Source: Actinomycetota bacterium (GTDB lineage Bacteria; Actinomycetota; Acidimicrobiia; Acidimicrobiales; Ilumatobacteraceae). From it: 7,728 nt of DNA. Of the stretch, positions 2 to 7,728 are shown piece after piece. The position numbers and the translations under genes are program-made. The stretch spans positions 1 to 7,728 of the forward strand of contig WLFB01000046.1 of NCBI GenBank assembly GCA_009703975.1, read 5' to 3'. How positions within the stretch are numbered: the first letter of the stretch is position 1; each line of letters starts with the position of its first letter. Below the pieces are notes generated by a model. It saw only the letters and a program-made list of their open reading frames with translations, was not told the origin of the DNA and did no database searches.

Positions 2-664
2 CTGTTTGCCGCCAGTGGTGAAGAGCAAACTTCAAAGGGAATTAAGAAAAAAATTACGGGTTTTCTTGTCGACTTCAACACCAAAGGTTGCGAGCGCGTT
101 AAGGGATACAACTGCGTTTCAAACAATGGCTATCACAACTCGATTATCAATTTCGATAATTGCCGCGTTCCTGCCTCAAATGTTCTGGGTGAAGAACATA
201 ACGGCTTTGATGCCGCCAATGAGTGGCTTGGTGCTACACGTTTACAAGTTGCCGCCGTGTGCGTTGGTCGTGCCCGTCGCGCACTTAAACTCGCTGTCGA
301 ATGGGCCGCCACGCGCGAACAGTTCGGCCAGCAAATTGGCAAGTTCCAAGGAGTGTCGTTCAAACTTGCTGATATGCAGATTCAACTAGACGCAGCAGAG
401 TTACTGACTTTGCGAGCCGCATTCAATGATGCTGCTGGTAATTTCAGCGATACCGAAGTTGCAATGGCTAAAGTTTTTTCTAGTGAGATGTGTCAGTTCG
501 TCACCGATGAGGCAATACAAATTTTTGGCGGCATGGGCTTAATGGACGAGTTGCCTTTAGAACGAATGTGGCGTGATACTCGTGTTGATCGCATATGGGA
601 TGGAACGAGCGAAATTCAAAGGCACATCATTTCGCGAGCGTTGTTGCGTCCTCATGGCGGCTGA
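2..664 (+). CDS. Acyl-CoA dehydrogenase, C-terminal part (5' end outside window)
   Basis: FAD-dependent flavoenzyme that introduces a trans-2,3 double bond into an acyl-CoA, or, as CaiA does, works on crotonobetainyl-CoA in the reductive direction. The frame is open from base 2 and 220 residues are visible; the family is about 380 long, so roughly 160 N-terminal residues lie upstream. Seen: the end of the middle beta domain (GFLVDF, then NCRVPASNVLGE and NGF), then the C-terminal helical domain with REQFGQQIGKFQ, ADMQIQLDAAE, IQIFGGMGL and RMWRDTRVDRIWDGTSEIQR. These are classic family signatures. At the MCAD catalytic-Glu position (YEGT in MCAD) it has Asp, codon 599-601, in WDGT. The alternative base position used by isovaleryl-CoA dehydrogenase is Thr here (GATRLQ), as in MCAD. 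The stop overlaps the next gene by 11 nt, so they are co-transcribed. With a CaiD-like hydratase two genes on, a CaiA-like role is plausible, but the similarity to CaiA is only general. Confidence 0.9.
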   Translation: MFAASGEEQTSKGIKKKITGFLVDFNTKGCERVKGYNCVSNNGYHNSIINFDNCRVPASNVLGEEHNGFDAANEWLGATRLQVAAVCVGRARRALKLAVEWAATREQFGQQIGKFQGVSFKLADMQIQLDAAELLTLRAAFNDAAGNFSDTEVAMAKVFSSEMCQFVTDEAIQIFGGMGLMDELPLERMWRDTRVDRIWDGTSEIQRHIISRALLRPHGG

Positions 665-2690
665 GCAACTTCTTGCAAGAACGCTGAATCCTCGCTCTAT
701 TGCATTGTTCGGCACAGGACCTGCGCAAAGTGTTATTGAGCAGTGTCGCAAACTTGGCTACACCGGAGAACTTTGGCCAGTTCATCCAACGCGCGAAACC
801 TTGGCTGGCGTTAAATGCTTTAAAACTGTTGCCGATTTGCCGCATCCTCCCGACGCTGCATTTGTTGCCGTTAACCGCCACGCCACAATTGAAGTAATTG
901 CCCAGCTGGCGAAGATTGGCACAGGCGGAGCAGTTTGCTACGCATCCGGATTTTCTGAATCAGGAATGCACTCCGGAGTCGATGGTGTTGCATTGCAAAA
1001 ACAACTTAAAAACGCTGCGGGCGAAATGCCAATTCTTGGCCCTAATTGTTATGGCTATATCAACGCATTGGATGGCATCGCACTTTGGCCCGATCAACAT
1101 GGCTGTAAACCACTAACGAGTGGCGCAGCGATCGTAAGCCAAAGCGGAAACGTCGGGCTTAATCTAACTCTGCAGCAAAGAGGTTTAGACCTCGCCTATC
1201 TCGTAACCGTAGGAAACCAAGCAACTGCAGGAGTTGAAGAGTGTCTCGAGGTTTTCATCGACGACAGTCGCGTGACAGCAATCGGATTATTTATTGAGGC
1301 AATTGTCGATCCAATTCGTTTTGCAAAACTTGCACTTAAAGCTGACCAACGCAATCTGCGAATAGTCGCCTTACAGACTGGCCGAAGCGACGCCGGAGCA
1401 ATGATCGCCGCCTCACATACGGCATCACTAGCTGGGCGTCGCAGTGCTTATCAAGCATTTTTTAACCGATGTGGAGTGGCCATGGTTGACACTCCTGTCG
1501 AACTAATTGAAACCTTAAAATTGTTGATTCAAGATGGCGCATTAACGGGCAACAAGCTCGTCTCGCTTTCATGCTCTGGTGGCGAGGCCTCTTTGATCGC
1601 TGATCTTTGCGAAAAGACTTCATTAGTTTTCGAGCCCTTTGCAAATGACCAACACTCGAGGATTAGCGAAACACTTACAGAACTAGTAACAGTTGGTAAC
1701 CCGTTTGATTACCACACATTTATGTGGGGCGACCGCACTGCCACAGCGAATACGTTTACGCAAGTAATGTTTGGCCCACAAGACGCAACACTGCTAATTC
1801 TTGATACGCCCCCAAGAAACGATCACGATTCTAAAACTTGGGTCACTGCTGCTCAATCACTTGGAGATGCTGCGACAGCAACAAAACGTCGTGGAGTAAT
1901 AATTGCAACTCTTCCAGAATGTGTAACAGAAGAAGTTCGCACAGCCGCAACTGCCGCCAACCTAGTTGTGTTACAAGGACTGAACGATGCGATCATTGCA
2001 CTTAACGCAGCAGCTTGGCTATCGACCAATCACCCAGAGCAACCACCCGCAACAGTCACGGCTTTCACTGCAACGAAATTAATTAACGAAGCCGACGCCA
2101 AATCTCTTTTACAGAAAAATCATGTGACTGTGCCGATTGGAAAGAAATCCACTCGAGATGATGTTGCTAAAACTGCAACAGAGGTCGGTTACCCGATAAC
2201 ACTTAAAGGTTTAGGGCTGGCCCACAAGAGCGAATCTGGCGCAGTGAGAGTAGGTCTACAAAACGAACAAGAATTGACACAGGCGCTTACAAAAATGCCT
2301 TCTTCAATATCCGATTTTCTCGTCGAGCAAACAATCACAGACGTTGTCGCTGAGATTCTTGTCAGTATTCGTCGAGATCCGCCTGTTGGTTGGCTAATCA
2401 CCCTTGGTGCTGGCGGCGTTTACACCGAGCTATGGCGCGACACAACATATTTGCTTGCACCGGTAAGCAACTCGCAAATTGAGTCTGCGATTAGCGAAAT
2501 TCGAATAGCGCCACTACTAAAGGGTTTTCGTGGCAAGCCTGCAGGAAATATCAATGCTTTAGTTGAGTTGATCCAAAGGGTTATAGATACGGCGACAAAC
2601 AACGACCTCGTTGAGATTGAATTGAATCCTGTGCTGGTTACACCGAAAACTGCAGTAGCTGTTGACGCCCTAATGATCGCGACTATGTGA
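654..2690 (+). CDS. NDP-forming acyl-CoA synthetase (acetate--CoA ligase family), fused alpha-beta type
   Basis: Activates a carboxylate with CoA and a nucleoside triphosphate through a phosphohistidine, giving acyl-CoA, NDP and phosphate. The protein has 678 residues, typical of fused single-chain members. Order of domains: Rossmann CoA-binding domain (about 8-135; NPRSIALFGTG, ending ILGPNCYGYIN), succinyl-CoA-ligase-like domains (about 155-455; AIVSQSGNVG at 159-168, the phosphohistidine motif SHTASLAG with His255, and Glu215 in GLFIEAI), then an ATP-grasp domain (about 473-678; ITLKG around Lys518, AHKSESGAV, SIRRDP, ITLGAGGVYTELWRD, EIELNPVLV). I chose ATG 654 because the family's N-terminus begins there; the frame is open further upstream, but that stretch matches nothing. 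No Shine-Dalgarno is visible, and translation is probably coupled to the dehydrogenase stop. Set between a dehydrogenase and a CaiD-like hydratase, it probably makes their CoA substrate, taking the place of AMP-forming CaiC. DMSP lyase DddX also belongs to this superfamily, so a betaine or sulfonium substrate is conceivable; the substrate cannot be read from the sequence. Confidence 0.9.
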   Translation: MAAEQLLARTLNPRSIALFGTGPAQSVIEQCRKLGYTGELWPVHPTRETLAGVKCFKTVADLPHPPDAAFVAVNRHATIEVIAQLAKIGTGGAVCYASGFSESGMHSGVDGVALQKQLKNAAGEMPILGPNCYGYINALDGIALWPDQHGCKPLTSGAAIVSQSGNVGLNLTLQQRGLDLAYLVTVGNQATAGVEECLEVFIDDSRVTAIGLFIEAIVDPIRFAKLALKADQRNLRIVALQTGRSDAGAMIAASHTASLAGRRSAYQAFFNRCGVAMVDTPVELIETLKLLIQDGALTGNKLVSLSCSGGEASLIADLCEKTSLVFEPFANDQHSRISETLTELVTVGNPFDYHTFMWGDRTATANTFTQVMFGPQDATLLILDTPPRNDHDSKTWVTAAQSLGDAATATKRRGVIIATLPECVTEEVRTAATAANLVVLQGLNDAIIALNAAAWLSTNHPEQPPATVTAFTATKLINEADAKSLLQKNHVTVPIGKKSTRDDVAKTATEVGYPITLKGLGLAHKSESGAVRVGLQNEQELTQALTKMPSSISDFLVEQTITDVVAEILVSIRRDPPVGWLITLGAGGVYTELWRDTTYLLAPVSNSQIESAISEIRIAPLLKGFRGKPAGNINALVELIQRVIDTATNNDLVEIELNPVLVTPKTAVAVDALMIATM

Positions 2691-3460
2691 TGAGTGTTGA
2701 AGTAGTTAACAACGGCGAAATTCTAGAAATCACAATCGACAGACCAAAAGCCAACGCTATTGACGCGGCGACAAGTCAAGAATTAAGCACGATCTTTGAG
2801 TCGTTTATGAAGGACTCAAAGACACGTGTAGCAATTTTGACCGGGAGCGGGTCAAGGTTTTTTTCGGCCGGATGGGACCTGACGGCAGCTAACGAGGGAG
2901 AAGCATTCGAATCTGATTACGGTGTTGGCGGATTTGGTGGAATCTGCGAACTTAAATTTCGTCCCAAACCGGTAATTGCCGCAGTAAACGGTATGGCTGT
3001 TGGCGGTGGCTTTGAAATTGCTTTAGCTGCCGACTTTATAGTCGCCGCAGATCATGCAACTTTTTTCCTTCCTGAAACAACGCTTGGTTTAATTGCCGAC
3101 AACGCCACAGTTCGTTTGCCAAAGATCCTGCCACCAAATATCGCACGCGAAATGTTGATCTCAGGGCGACGAATGCTGGCAACCGAAGCACAATCTTGGG
3201 GAATTGTAAATGAGGTTACAACTGCCGAAGATTTATTACCCGCCGCTCGCCGACTCGCTGTAAGGATTTGCCAGTCTGCACCTTTAAGCATCTCAGCGGT
3301 CTTAGATCTGATGCGCGAATTAGAAACAGTTTCAACCTCAAACGCAATGACTGTTTTGCGCGAGAACCAAACATACCGCAATGCAATTAATTCTCAAGAT
3401 GCCACTGAGGGTACGAAAGCATTCGCCGAAAAGCGTGCACCAAAATGGCTGGGTCGCTAG
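2690..3460 (+). CDS. caiD: Crotonase-family hydratase, CaiD-like (carnitinyl-CoA dehydratase / crotonobetainyl-CoA hydratase)
   Basis: CaiD interconverts L-carnitinyl-CoA and crotonobetainyl-CoA in the cytoplasm. This 256-residue protein (E. coli CaiD is 261) matches CaiD along its length from memory: ILEITIDRPKANAIDA near the N-terminus, FFSAGWDL with EGEA (57-72), PVIAAVNG, GGGFEIALAADFIV (105-118), RLPKILPP (142-149) and the end FAEKRAPKWLGR. The two crotonase catalytic acids are present as Glu109 and Glu129, which correspond to E. coli Glu111 and Glu131 with a constant offset of two. Oddity: after Glu129 the usual PDSGG-type loop is replaced by ADNAT, and the segment is one residue shorter. 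ATG 2690 overlaps the ligase stop by one base (TGATG), showing translational coupling; GTG 2687 just before it is an in-frame alternative. The family is firm. The carnitine or betaine specificity is inferred from similarity and could be a related beta-hydroxyacyl-CoA. Confidence 0.82.
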   Translation: MSVEVVNNGEILEITIDRPKANAIDAATSQELSTIFESFMKDSKTRVAILTGSGSRFFSAGWDLTAANEGEAFESDYGVGGFGGICELKFRPKPVIAAVNGMAVGGGFEIALAADFIVAADHATFFLPETTLGLIADNATVRLPKILPPNIAREMLISGRRMLATEAQSWGIVNEVTTAEDLLPAARRLAVRICQSAPLSISAVLDLMRELETVSTSNAMTVLRENQTYRNAINSQDATEGTKAFAEKRAPKWLGR

Positions 3461-5381: not shown

Positions 5382-5711
5382 ATGACAGAGTTAGGTAATG
5401 ATTGGATTACGGCGTGCGATGAATCATCAATCGCAAAAAATGACGTCGCAAGATTTGATCATCTTGACGGCACATATGCAGTAGTTCGTACGTCTGATGG
5501 GACATGTGTGGTGATGGATGGTCTTTGCACTCACGGTAAAGCACACTTGGGGGAAGGCTTCGTGGACGGCACGACAATTGAATGTCCGAAACATAACGGA
5601 CGATTTAATGTTTTAACTGGAGAAGCGGTTGCTTCGCCAGTTCGCGTTGCGACAAGTGTTTATGAAACTCGAGTACATAACTCGAAGATTGAATTTCGAC
5701 TACTTAAATAG
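5382..5711 (+). CDS. MocE-family Rieske [2Fe-2S] ferredoxin
   Basis: A soluble electron carrier of 109 residues that would feed electrons to the di-iron oxygenase encoded just upstream. The Rieske cluster ligands are complete: Cys49-x-His51 (CTHG) and Cys68-x2-His71 (CPKH), 16 residues apart, followed by GRFNVLTGEAVASPV, the usual glycine/proline-rich end of the cluster-binding fold. Length and motif fit stand-alone ferredoxins of the MocE/biphenyl dioxygenase type; there is no oxygenase catalytic domain. ATG 5382 follows the desaturase stop by 3 nt with no Shine-Dalgarno, so translation is probably coupled. The cognate ferredoxin reductase (MocF role) is not in the window and must be elsewhere. 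The 3' end overlaps the convergent selenoprotein gene by 8 nt. Confidence 0.92.
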   Translation: MTELGNDWITACDESSIAKNDVARFDHLDGTYAVVRTSDGTCVVMDGLCTHGKAHLGEGFVDGTTIECPKHNGRFNVLTGEAVASPVRVATSVYETRVHNSKIEFRLLK

Positions 5712-6780
5712 TCTCTGGTTTTGTTTCGCGACCGGTACCAAGCCTGTAACCGGGTCGACCCGCTCTTGACCATCCATCGACAAATTTAAAAAACTCGTCA
5801 CCAAACGGATCAACGCCTACAAGAGGCATATTGCCGCGACGAATGGTCCAGTCAAATGGTGCTAATTCTTCTGCACGAGCCAGGTGCTTTCGCGAACCAA
5901 TCTCATCTCCCACACCTCCACGTTCACGCAATGCGATCGCAATACGCCGATGTAAGCGTGCATCTTGCAATTCTTGAGATGGCGGTAACTGAAAATCACG
6001 CACCTGAGAATCATTCAAATCAAGCACATTGTTATGAACCCATGACCGTAACAAATTATGGTGCACCTCAGAATCAACATGAGAGAACGATCGAAACAGG
6101 TCACTACCTGGAGTGCCGTCTGCAGGGCGAACTATCTTATTATTTTCGTCTACCCAGATTGCGGCCGGCACATTAACAAATCCATACAAGTCGGCGACAA
6201 TGTGAAATTTATCAATTAGCACCGGAAACGTGAGCGCTTCTTTTGTCGCCCACTCGATGACTGCCTTCACATCAGCATCTAATGCCACGGCAATTATCTG
6301 TAAACCAGAATTTTGTAATTCGTTAGAGAGTTGCTGCCAGACCGGCAGCTCGTAACGGCAGCCTCACCAGGAGGACCATGCCAGCAACAATCTCTTTCGC
6401 CGATTGAAATCACTGAACGACACTTGCTTGCCATAAATATCTGGCAACATAAAGTCTGGTGCATCCAGCGACGACATAGATTCGGCTCGAGTTGGTGCCG
6501 AGTCGCCCAAAGCAACTACTTCATACCCTCTATCGAACACAATACTTTGATTCGTAAACTTCGCAAACGAAGCGAGATCAATATTGACACCATCTGACAA
6601 TTCGCCAGCGTTACGCACCGGATAACAAATATCGCCTTTGCATAATCCTTCGGGCTTTAAAACCCAACCGGTTGCGCCCTCAAGATCACTGACCAAGATT
6701 GCGAATTCACCAAATTCCCTGCTACTAGTCGCCACTGATGCCCCACCGTCAGTTCTGATGACTAAGCAACTACTGTCCAC
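5704..6780 (-). CDS. ResA/thioredoxin-like selenoprotein with in-frame UGA (Sec139)
   Basis: One 358-residue protein read through TGA at 6366-6364. Upstream of the TGA: GWVLKPEGLCKGDICYPV (39-55, Cys47 and Cys52), APDFMLPDIYG (107-117, start of the AhpC/TSA-ResA fold), SFSDF and LLLAWSSW (131-138). The TGA is followed in the same frame by GCRYELPVWQQL, IIAVALDAD, FPVLID, and VNVPAAIWVD with the thioredoxin cis-proline at 205. The C-terminal region ends with RRGNMPLVGVDP, FFKFVDGW and AGRPGY. Only Sec or Cys makes sense at the TGA, giving W-U-G-C-R, which fits the ResA-like selenoprotein family with a WAxxUGC motif (Ser replaces Ala). A SECIS-like hairpin follows. Expected role: thiol-disulfide or peroxide redox chemistry; the substrate is unknown. 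No signal peptide is seen. GTG 6780 is the start because TAA lies four codons upstream; TAAGAT six bases before it predicts a leaderless mRNA. The gene converges on the Rieske gene with an 8-nt overlap. Confidence 0.88.
6333..6366 (-). promoter_or_regulatory. Putative bacterial SECIS element with its UGA codon
   Basis: On the mRNA (minus strand), UGA (6366-6364) is followed after 14 nt by GCUGCC-GGUCU-GGCAGC (6349-6333), a perfect 6-bp stem with a 5-nt loop. GGUCU starts at nt 24 counted from the U of UGA. E. coli fdhF has the same GGUCU apical loop, by my recollection starting at nt 22; SelB reads its G and U. Loop identity, spacing and a coding frame that continues together support a SECIS. 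Outer pairing is limited to a bulged GA/UC, so the lower stem is weak. Confidence 0.75.
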
Positions 6781-6792
6781 CGCTTGATCTTA
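6781..6792 (-). promoter_or_regulatory. -10 box of the selenoprotein gene, leaderless type
   Basis: On the minus strand TAAGAT (6792-6787) is followed by six bases (CAAGCG) and then GTG 6780. This TANNNT-6-start geometry matches the desaturase promoter and predicts transcription from the start codon. No convincing -35 hexamer is seen at 16-19 nt. The TAA of the same hexamer is also the in-frame stop that fixes the start codon. Confidence 0.4.
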
Positions 6793-6854
6793 ACTCATAC
6801 GGACACGCAAACCGATAGCCAAGAATAAGCGTCTCATACATCTGCTCTATAAGT

Positions 6855-6867
6855 TAAAATCACAGAG
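6855..6867 (+). promoter_or_regulatory. -10 box of the SGNH-like membrane protein gene
   Basis: TAAAAT (6855-6860) lies seven bases before ATG 6868, again close to leaderless geometry; TATAAG (6848-6853) is an overlapping alternative. No good -35 box is visible. Together with the minus-strand box, the 87-nt gap 6781-6867 is a compact divergent promoter region with nothing else recognisable in it. Confidence 0.35.
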
Positions 6868-7728
6868 ATGTCAATGTTCGCTAATTCAATAAAACTGTCA
6901 TTGTTTACAAATATTGGATCTCCGTTAACCATTGCGATTATTGGTTCAGCTCCGTGGATGCTTTTTAGCCAGCGACTCATTTTGGCACTACTCACACCTC
7001 TAGCACTACTCACAGCATTGATGTTCTCTGATCGATGCCACGACAAAAATTTTCGTATCCGTACCGTTTTGCCTTTGGCACTTCTCCTTCTGATTCAACT
7101 TCTTCAGATTCATTACGGAGTCATCCCAGAGGCCTCGCCTAACCATCGGACACTTTTTCGGGTGTTGCTAATTTCAATAGTTCCCCTGATATTTGTAATC
7201 TGTCAGAAAGTAACAATTCGAAACGTGATTACTGCCAACGTGCTTGTGTTGCTGGTGGGGCTAGTAGTTGTAGAGGGCACATTGACTGTCCTATCACCAA
7301 TGAAAAGTGAGCAAAACAAATGGTCTGATTTGGCATCTCAGTTTGACGAGTCTCCGAAACCTGAAACGAGCCCGACAATCTCAATGGACGGCCAACATCG
7401 TCTGACGACAGATCAGCCCAAGTCGTTCACGCAACGAGTATTTTTCTACGGTGGATCAACAACGTTTAATCGCGAGGTTACAGATTCTGACACATATCCA
7501 TCGCTAACTCAAAAACTTCTTAATGAAAAAGCGGGCGCAATCAAGGTTGAAAACCGCGGAACTATCGGGGCATCAGCGGTTGACCTATTACGTTTTCTTC
7601 AAGAAAACGAGACTGATTTGCTCAACACAAACGAAGGAGACACAAGTCAAGGTTTACGCCGTGGAGATATCGTCGTTTTCTACATCGGCGTGAATGAAGC
7701 CAAAAATGCGATCGTCTACAGAGATCCA
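6868..7728 (+). CDS. Membrane-anchored SGNH/GDSL-like hydrolase (3' end outside window)
   Basis: Open without a stop from ATG 6868 to the last base; 287 residues are visible. The N-terminal part is hydrophobic, with likely membrane segments at about 17-33, 37-53, 67-81, 97-112 and 120-142. A polar linker (about 145-188) follows, then an SGNH-like domain: VFFYGGSTTFN (191-201, where Ser197 takes the place of the GDS nucleophile), DSDTYPSLTQKLL, VENRGTIGASAVDLLRF (block II-like), and DIVVFYIGVNEA (Gly274, Asn276; block III GxN). The C-terminal Asp-x-x-His block would lie beyond the window. Such proteins usually act on cell-surface or extracellular esters, for example as glycan O-acyl esterases or transferases; the exact role here is unknown. 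It is divergent from the selenoprotein gene, with no evidence of a functional link. ATG 6874 (third codon) is an alternative start. Confidence 0.75.
   Translation, partial: MSMFANSIKLSLFTNIGSPLTIAIIGSAPWMLFSQRLILALLTPLALLTALMFSDRCHDKNFRIRTVLPLALLLLIQLLQIHYGVIPEASPNHRTLFRVLLISIVPLIFVICQKVTIRNVITANVLVLLVGLVVVEGTLTVLSPMKSEQNKWSDLASQFDESPKPETSPTISMDGQHRLTTDQPKSFTQRVFFYGGSTTFNREVTDSDTYPSLTQKLLNEKAGAIKVENRGTIGASAVDLLRFLQENETDLLNTNEGDTSQGLRRGDIVVFYIGVNEAKNAIVYRDP
6985..7014 (+). repeat. Short direct repeat inside a membrane segment
   Basis: GCACTACTCACA occurs at 6985-6996 and again at 7003-7014, an exact 12-bp repeat with an 18-bp period. It encodes ALLT twice (ALLTPLALLTAL), so it keeps the frame and the hydrophobic character. 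It is probably a small in-frame duplication. Confidence 0.6.

Follow-up and report, generated by a model that had tools for sequence, protein, structure and literature searches.

Results

A thioredoxin-fold gene with a single in-frame TGA

The 7,728-nucleotide stretch of contig WLFB01000046.1 analysed here (the window) carries on its minus strand a gene of 358 codons (5704-6780) that starts with GTG at 6780, ends with TAA and contains a single TGA in frame, and sequence comparison makes it very likely that the product of this gene is a selenoprotein. The TGA (6364-6366, minus strand), predicted to encode selenocysteine (Sec, U), is codon 139 and stands in the context WSSW-TGA-GCR, where it takes the place of the first redox residue in an active site of thioredoxin type, as the first-pass annotation had noted. 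As that annotation had proposed, family character is found on both sides of the codon: the joined product matches PF00578 (AhpC-TSA) with 65.9 bits (cut-off 26) over residues 106-217, so one domain spans the TGA. Routine calling does split the gene, since a standard open reading frame (ORF) listing with translation table 11 cuts it into a 138-aa ORF (6364-6780) and a 194-aa ORF (5704-6288). The GTG start lies opposite the ATG of the nearest homologue, L055 (84% identical). Four window genes terminate in TGA, at 664, 2690, 4187 and 5378, all of them named beforehand, and TGA is therefore a normal stop here rather than a generally reassigned codon.

Codon 139 is TGA or a cysteine codon in homologues

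To read the codon in relatives, DNA was inspected at 37 loci, which gave 27 distinct genes, the window gene included, after merging of duplicates (the same locus in two collections being one count). TGA stands at aligned codon 139 in 24 of the 27 genes and TGC or TGT, encoding cysteine (Cys), in three; the TGA-bearing genes come from records of several separate projects. L041 (the window again), L072 (partial, with TGA) and several loci without a match spanning the codon were left out, and L047-L050 and L053, which have Cys at the aligned codon, were excluded as ordinary thioredoxin-fold proteins of 25-29% identity. A protein search returned 379 homologues, and among the best 120, which were examined, 101 are full-length proteins, all with Cys at residue 139 (101/101). 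The remaining 19 are fragments, 200-204 aa long, that account for 55-57% of the query; the two of these that were read both start 3′ of the TGA. Homologues of this family have U or Cys at residue 139, and this check named in the first-pass annotation thus came out in its favour.

When 116 sequences were aligned (15 TGA-type, window included, and 101 Cys-type), the invariant positions were C47, C52, W138, residue 139 (U/Cys), C141, R142 and N203-V204-P205. Cys141 (6358-6360, minus strand), paired with Sec139 in the UxC motif, is present in 116/116 sequences, as is a second pair, Cys47-x4-Cys52 (6625-6642, minus strand), in the N-terminal domain; the only other Cys of the window protein, C5, is not conserved.

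Two further observations concern these relatives. L070, L056 and L058, close relatives at 69-77% identity, stand in genome records whose titles, Bifidobacterium breve or Ferrithrix thermotolerans, look like those of mislabelled bins, and in the relative genome G040 the TGA-containing gene is present more than once, as several copies or pieces (contigs C140, C164, C156, C176 and C193).

A conserved hairpin follows the TGA

Downstream of the TGA lies a candidate selenocysteine insertion sequence (SECIS) hairpin (6333-6349, minus strand) with a 6-bp stem, GCUGCC/GGCAGC, and a 5-nt loop, GGUCU (6339-6343), at distances of 14 nt from TGA to stem and 20 nt from TGA to loop. The first-pass annotation had not mentioned it, and it adds an independent line of evidence. 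Synonymous change is suppressed at this place, for which the hairpin offers a visible cause: over codons 1-12 after the TGA, 1155 codon pairs encode the same residue and 73.7% of them are identical, compared with the 296 other scan segments, where the median is 42% and the highest value 52%, figures that are descriptive as the rows are related and that apply to segments with at least 400 same-residue pairs. When the scan is run without this minimum count, its lowest segments lie at the far C-terminal end (0.0, with few comparable codons) and not at the SECIS.

All six stem pairs form in every row (138/138 cells, from 24 TGA genes in 23 distinct rows). Pair 18-34 occurs as G-C, C-G or U-G and pair 19-33 as C-G or U-A, and the other four pairs never vary. 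Nine cells carry a double change; this count and the covariation score are both higher than in any of 500 shuffles, RNAalifold recovers the same helix unaided, and in the more distant TGA gene L119 one more pair, the third to vary, is switched from G-C to C-G. Folded alone, the hairpin has −11.6 kcal/mol (z −3.84). The rules for bacterial SECIS elements set out in a section of PMC13188914 call for a loop of 3-9 nt, a stem of 4-16 bp, a UGA-to-loop distance of 16-37 nt, a G within the first two loop positions and a minimum free energy of at most −7.5; with a 5-nt loop, a 6-bp stem, 20 nt and −11.6 kcal/mol, the window hairpin agrees with the rules as given there. An Rfam search of 6000-7000 gave a chance match only.

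As a separate observation, the Cys homologues L121, L123 and L130 possess a full SECIS-like hairpin, which could be a remnant of former Sec genes or a by-product of the codons for an LPxWQ motif.

Selenocysteine machinery and its co-occurrence with the TGA

The source genome (G000) is a draft of 1.49 Mb in 257 contigs, 75.7% complete. It encodes a tRNA-Sec (63.5 bits, anticodon tca as called by ARAGORN), a SelD (308.9 bits) and a 310-aa C-terminal piece of SelB, with PF09107 and PF25461, which runs off contig C147. The top match of the SelB model in this genome, on C64, is EF-Tu and was not counted. Across the source genome and 60 relatives, SelA scores above cut-off in 37 of 61 genomes.

Because the tRNA-Sec model also matches ordinary tRNAs, thresholds of at least 58 bits (61 genomes) and E ≤ 1e-10 (397 genomes) were applied. 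Among the 61 genomes, leaving aside G022, in which only a piece starting near the site is present, 18 carry the TGA gene, and of these 14 have a tRNA-Sec and 13 a SelA above cut-off; the three Cys carriers have neither. In 397 sampled genomes of the order, a homologue (E ≤ 1e-30) was found in 153 and a tRNA-Sec in 236. When the codon was read at the 30 best loci, tRNA-Sec was present in 20/20 TGA genomes and 2/10 Cys genomes (Fisher p = 7.7e-6), a contrast to be read with the facts that these loci are top-scoring rather than a random draw, that the window's genome is one of the 20 and that related genomes are not independent. A tally of 86 genomes by stop counts (tRNA-Sec in 64/69 TGA and 3/17 non-TGA genomes) is not relied on; it is weaker than it looks because at least one genome, G082, has TGC at codon 139 and TGA elsewhere.

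Counter-evidence and alternative readings of the TGA

We consider it highly probable, on the comparative data above, that TGA codon 139 is read as Sec through SelB and tRNA-Sec, likely under guidance of the hairpin, yielding a three-domain enzyme. A number of observations weigh against this explanation. Of the selA, selB, selC and selD set named by the first-pass annotation, tRNA-Sec, SelD and part of SelB are present in the source genome and SelA was not found in the 75.7% complete draft; the partial SelB reaches 41.5 bits on the SelB model against a cut-off of 242. Four of the 18 TGA carriers lack a tRNA-Sec at 58 bits and five lack a SelA above cut-off, and two, G007 and G015 (drafts, 81% and 83% complete), have neither. 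On the side of the hairpin, two of five covariation measures do not stand out, namely how many pairs show a double change (25/500 shuffles as high) and how many further pair types occur (162/500); the covariation is modest, with four of the six pairs unvaried, eight of the nine double changes at one pair and probably few events. The window's 51 nt from the TGA prefer a competing fold (minimum −15.4 kcal/mol, z −1.08). Cys homologues also pair, with all six pairs in 3/10 and at least five in 5/10, compared with 18/20 and 20/20 for TGA genes, so the encoded LPxWQ motif by itself favours the hairpin in part.

The absence of SelA from the source assembly would suit a decoding of UGA as Cys, with the Cys carried by tRNA-Sec or some other tRNA that reads UGA, or a near-cognate readthrough to Cys or Trp, and the existence of Cys homologues shows that the family accepts Cys at residue 139. 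Such a decoding is nevertheless improbable. SelD, which makes the selenium donor according to a passage of PMC1794560, is present, and SelA is above cut-off in 20 of 29 genomes of the genus searched, the source genome being among the 29. Moreover, a tblastn match to the source SelB piece lies downstream of selA in 10 of 12 selA loci of relatives, which places selA where the source contig breaks off. Since selA is directly upstream of selB in relatives, the missing selA is probably hidden by the same contig break that truncates selB.

A pseudogene, or a sequencing or assembly error that placed a stop in an ordinary Cys gene, might be suspected in a single draft genome of this completeness whose gene is split by standard ORF calling. 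This has a very small probability: the same TGA recurs in 24 of 27 distinct genes from several separate projects, and the hairpin is retained with compensatory changes. The ratio of nonsynonymous to synonymous substitution (dN/dS) against L055 is 0.127 upstream and 0.079 downstream of the TGA, and across five sister pairs it is 0.112-0.167 upstream and 0.035-0.127 downstream, which indicates that the protein is constrained beyond the stop. These ratios are limited to the nearest pair and five sister pairs, most other comparisons being saturated at synonymous sites, and one of 16 close genes (L045/L064, with N runs) was omitted. The TGA is not a nonsense mutation.

The same selection speaks against two separate proteins, a 138-residue product ending at the stop and a second gene starting downstream. 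Gene callers do produce this arrangement, as the 19 short pieces among the best 120 homologues show. It is scarcely credible for the window gene, as the break would halve one thioredoxin fold and remove its active-site residue, 101 homologues run uninterrupted through the site, and the whole stretch 3′ of the TGA is under purifying selection. A genome-wide reassignment of TGA to an amino acid would also account for the in-frame reading here and can be dismissed with similar assurance, given the four window genes that end in TGA, the location of the gene's one TGA on a redox residue with a SECIS-like hairpin downstream, and a tRNA-Sec with anticodon tca. The first-pass proposal of a probable selenoprotein is thus supported, the sequence-level checks being favourable and that of the machinery so in part only.

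Protein architecture and proposed mechanism

The predicted structure divides the 358-residue product into three domains, all encoded on the minus strand. An N-terminal alpha/beta domain (6469-6780, residues 1-104) gave no confident structural match when searched alone. It is followed by a ResA/TlpA-like thioredoxin-fold domain (6088-6474, about residues 103-231), delimited by PF00578 and the predicted structure, and a C-terminal helical domain (5764-6072, about residues 237-339), assigned by DSSP of the predicted structure. Hydropathy analysis revealed no membrane anchor, with no strongly hydrophobic 19-residue stretch and a maximum Kyte-Doolittle mean of 1.38. The product is probably a cytosolic three-domain thiol/selenol oxidoreductase.

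In the mechanism we propose, the bacterial pathway of SelB and tRNA-Sec would insert Sec at codon 139, and the conserved hairpin, whose stem begins 14 nt after the TGA, would likely guide the insertion; we infer that SelB binds the GGUCU loop and brings Sec-tRNA-Sec to the UGA. The resulting protein, probably cytosolic, would display the active site Sec139-Gly-Cys141 in the predicted ResA/TlpA-type thioredoxin fold of its middle domain. The Sec139 selenol would attack a disulfide (or peroxide) of the substrate, Cys141 would resolve the bond to form a Se-S link, and this link would be re-reduced, perhaps via Cys47 and Cys52, the invariant pair in the N-terminal domain. The involvement of Cys47/Cys52 is conjecture and counts among the weaker points of the scheme.

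A more specific reading, which we put forward tentatively and regard as rather doubtful, is a cytosolic two-centre selenoenzyme in which the UxC selenol active site and the invariant CX4C hairpin lie in a single chain and form a fixed electron relay, with Sec and Cys interchanged at least twice to give matched natural versions, and with a Sec clade of its own outside NF041054. If it were true, nature would supply matched Sec and Cys forms of one enzyme. The genes collected here, from small-genome actinobacteria, comprise matched Sec and Cys homologues together with a conserved SECIS and make it possible to test directly what Sec contributes at a UxC/CxC site, and the invariant second Cys pair offers a specific, testable mechanistic lead. 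Gene callers cut such genes at the TGA, as the 19 pieces illustrate, and the clade has probably been missed in annotation.

Neighbouring genes and a possible second selenoprotein

A Rieske [2Fe-2S] protein gene (PF00355; 5382-5711, plus strand) converges on the selenoprotein gene and overlaps its 3′ end by 8 bases. In several relatives, Rieske and desaturase genes stay beside the selenoprotein gene; the Rieske gene is context only and no part of the selenoprotein. Farther away, at 2-3460, the window holds acyl-CoA dehydrogenase, ATP-grasp/CoA-binding (acyl-CoA synthetase-like) and enoyl-CoA hydratase genes, a cluster of fatty-acid type.

Elsewhere in the source genome, on contig C180, another thioredoxin-fold gene with an in-frame TGA was found (L006:1228-1893). 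It reads WFWAPG-U-RAC, with a UxxC site and a lipoprotein-like N-terminus, and no strong hairpin appears in the 51-nt fold after its TGA (z +1.08). From its sequence it is possibly a second selenoprotein of this genome.

Relation to known families

The best NCBIfam model for the window protein is NF041054 (WAxxUGC_long, ResA-like WAxxUGC motif-containing protein), with 197.8 bits over residues 30-224. The match ends at profile position 202 of 354 and does not reach the cut-off of 300 bits. The first-pass assignment to a ResA-like WAxxUGC family was right in kind and falls short of membership by that model. Members above the cut-off share with the window gene the place of the TGA, the UGC motif, the N-terminal CX4C (7/7 loci, L025-L031) and the hairpin position; their motifs are WASWUGC, WSSYUGC and WSPYUGC, compared with WSSWUGC in the window. 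The nine TGA genes of the window's genus that were scored are all below the cut-off, so that annotation probably does not record this clade as selenoproteins.

A tree of 56 rows (23 Sec and 33 Cys, the latter comprising 30 of the 101 Cys proteins and three loci; root not known) places the window gene in a clade of 15 Sec rows and one Cys row (support 100/100), with Cys-containing proteins between this clade and the seven rows above the NF041054 cut-off. Three Sec/Cys changes are needed on the tree, two of them forced by starred branches, the exact count being unsure owing to the long branches L038 and L044. The nesting of the Cys protein P0015 within the Sec clade suggests a Sec-to-Cys change. 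A close relative of the window gene, L059, is titled acIV, the name of a freshwater actinobacterial lineage.

Zhang and Gladyshev (2008) tabulate a 'Prx-like (UGC-containing)' selenoprotein family of pfam00578 with 46 Sec sequences and 855 in a column we take as Cys homologues, and describe it as more abundant in nonmarine samples (PMC2398784). The window protein shares its pfam00578 match and UGC motif, and from the description in that paper the two families are likely the same. A table row of a 2026 review, citing the 2008 paper, lists a UGC-containing TlpA disulfide reductase family protein (cd02966), and to the extent of that row the UGC motif and the TlpA/ResA fold class are shared as well (PMC13188914). 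Our literature search found no paper using the term WAxxUGC, and searches on selenoprotein with Acidimicrobiia and selenocysteine with Ilumatobacter gave no such gene, judged by title. The deep-Sep paper (PMC12013277) is without the terms ResA, AhpC, Acidimicrobi, redoxin, Actinobacteria and Actinomycetota, and the main text of PMC5029168 is without 'UGC'.

With respect to better-known proteins, the ResA model NF002854 gives 70.8 bits, below its cut-off of 170, and the solved domain of Bacillus ResA (PDB 1st9, 1su9; ~140 residues) matches only the middle of the window protein. ResA has a CxxC site, is membrane-anchored and lies outside the cytoplasm, whereas the window protein, compared with Bacillus ResA and the DsbE-like 3gl3, has a UxC site and no anchor; 'ResA-like' accordingly holds for the middle domain and not for the anchor, the active site or the two further domains. 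The peroxidatic motif of peroxiredoxins is PxxxT/SxxC, and residue 132 of the window protein, seven before U139, is Leu and not Pro. The window gene belongs to an already described kind of selenoprotein; what this analysis adds is the evidence from synonymous suppression and covariation, the clade set apart from the known members and the second Cys pair that never varies.
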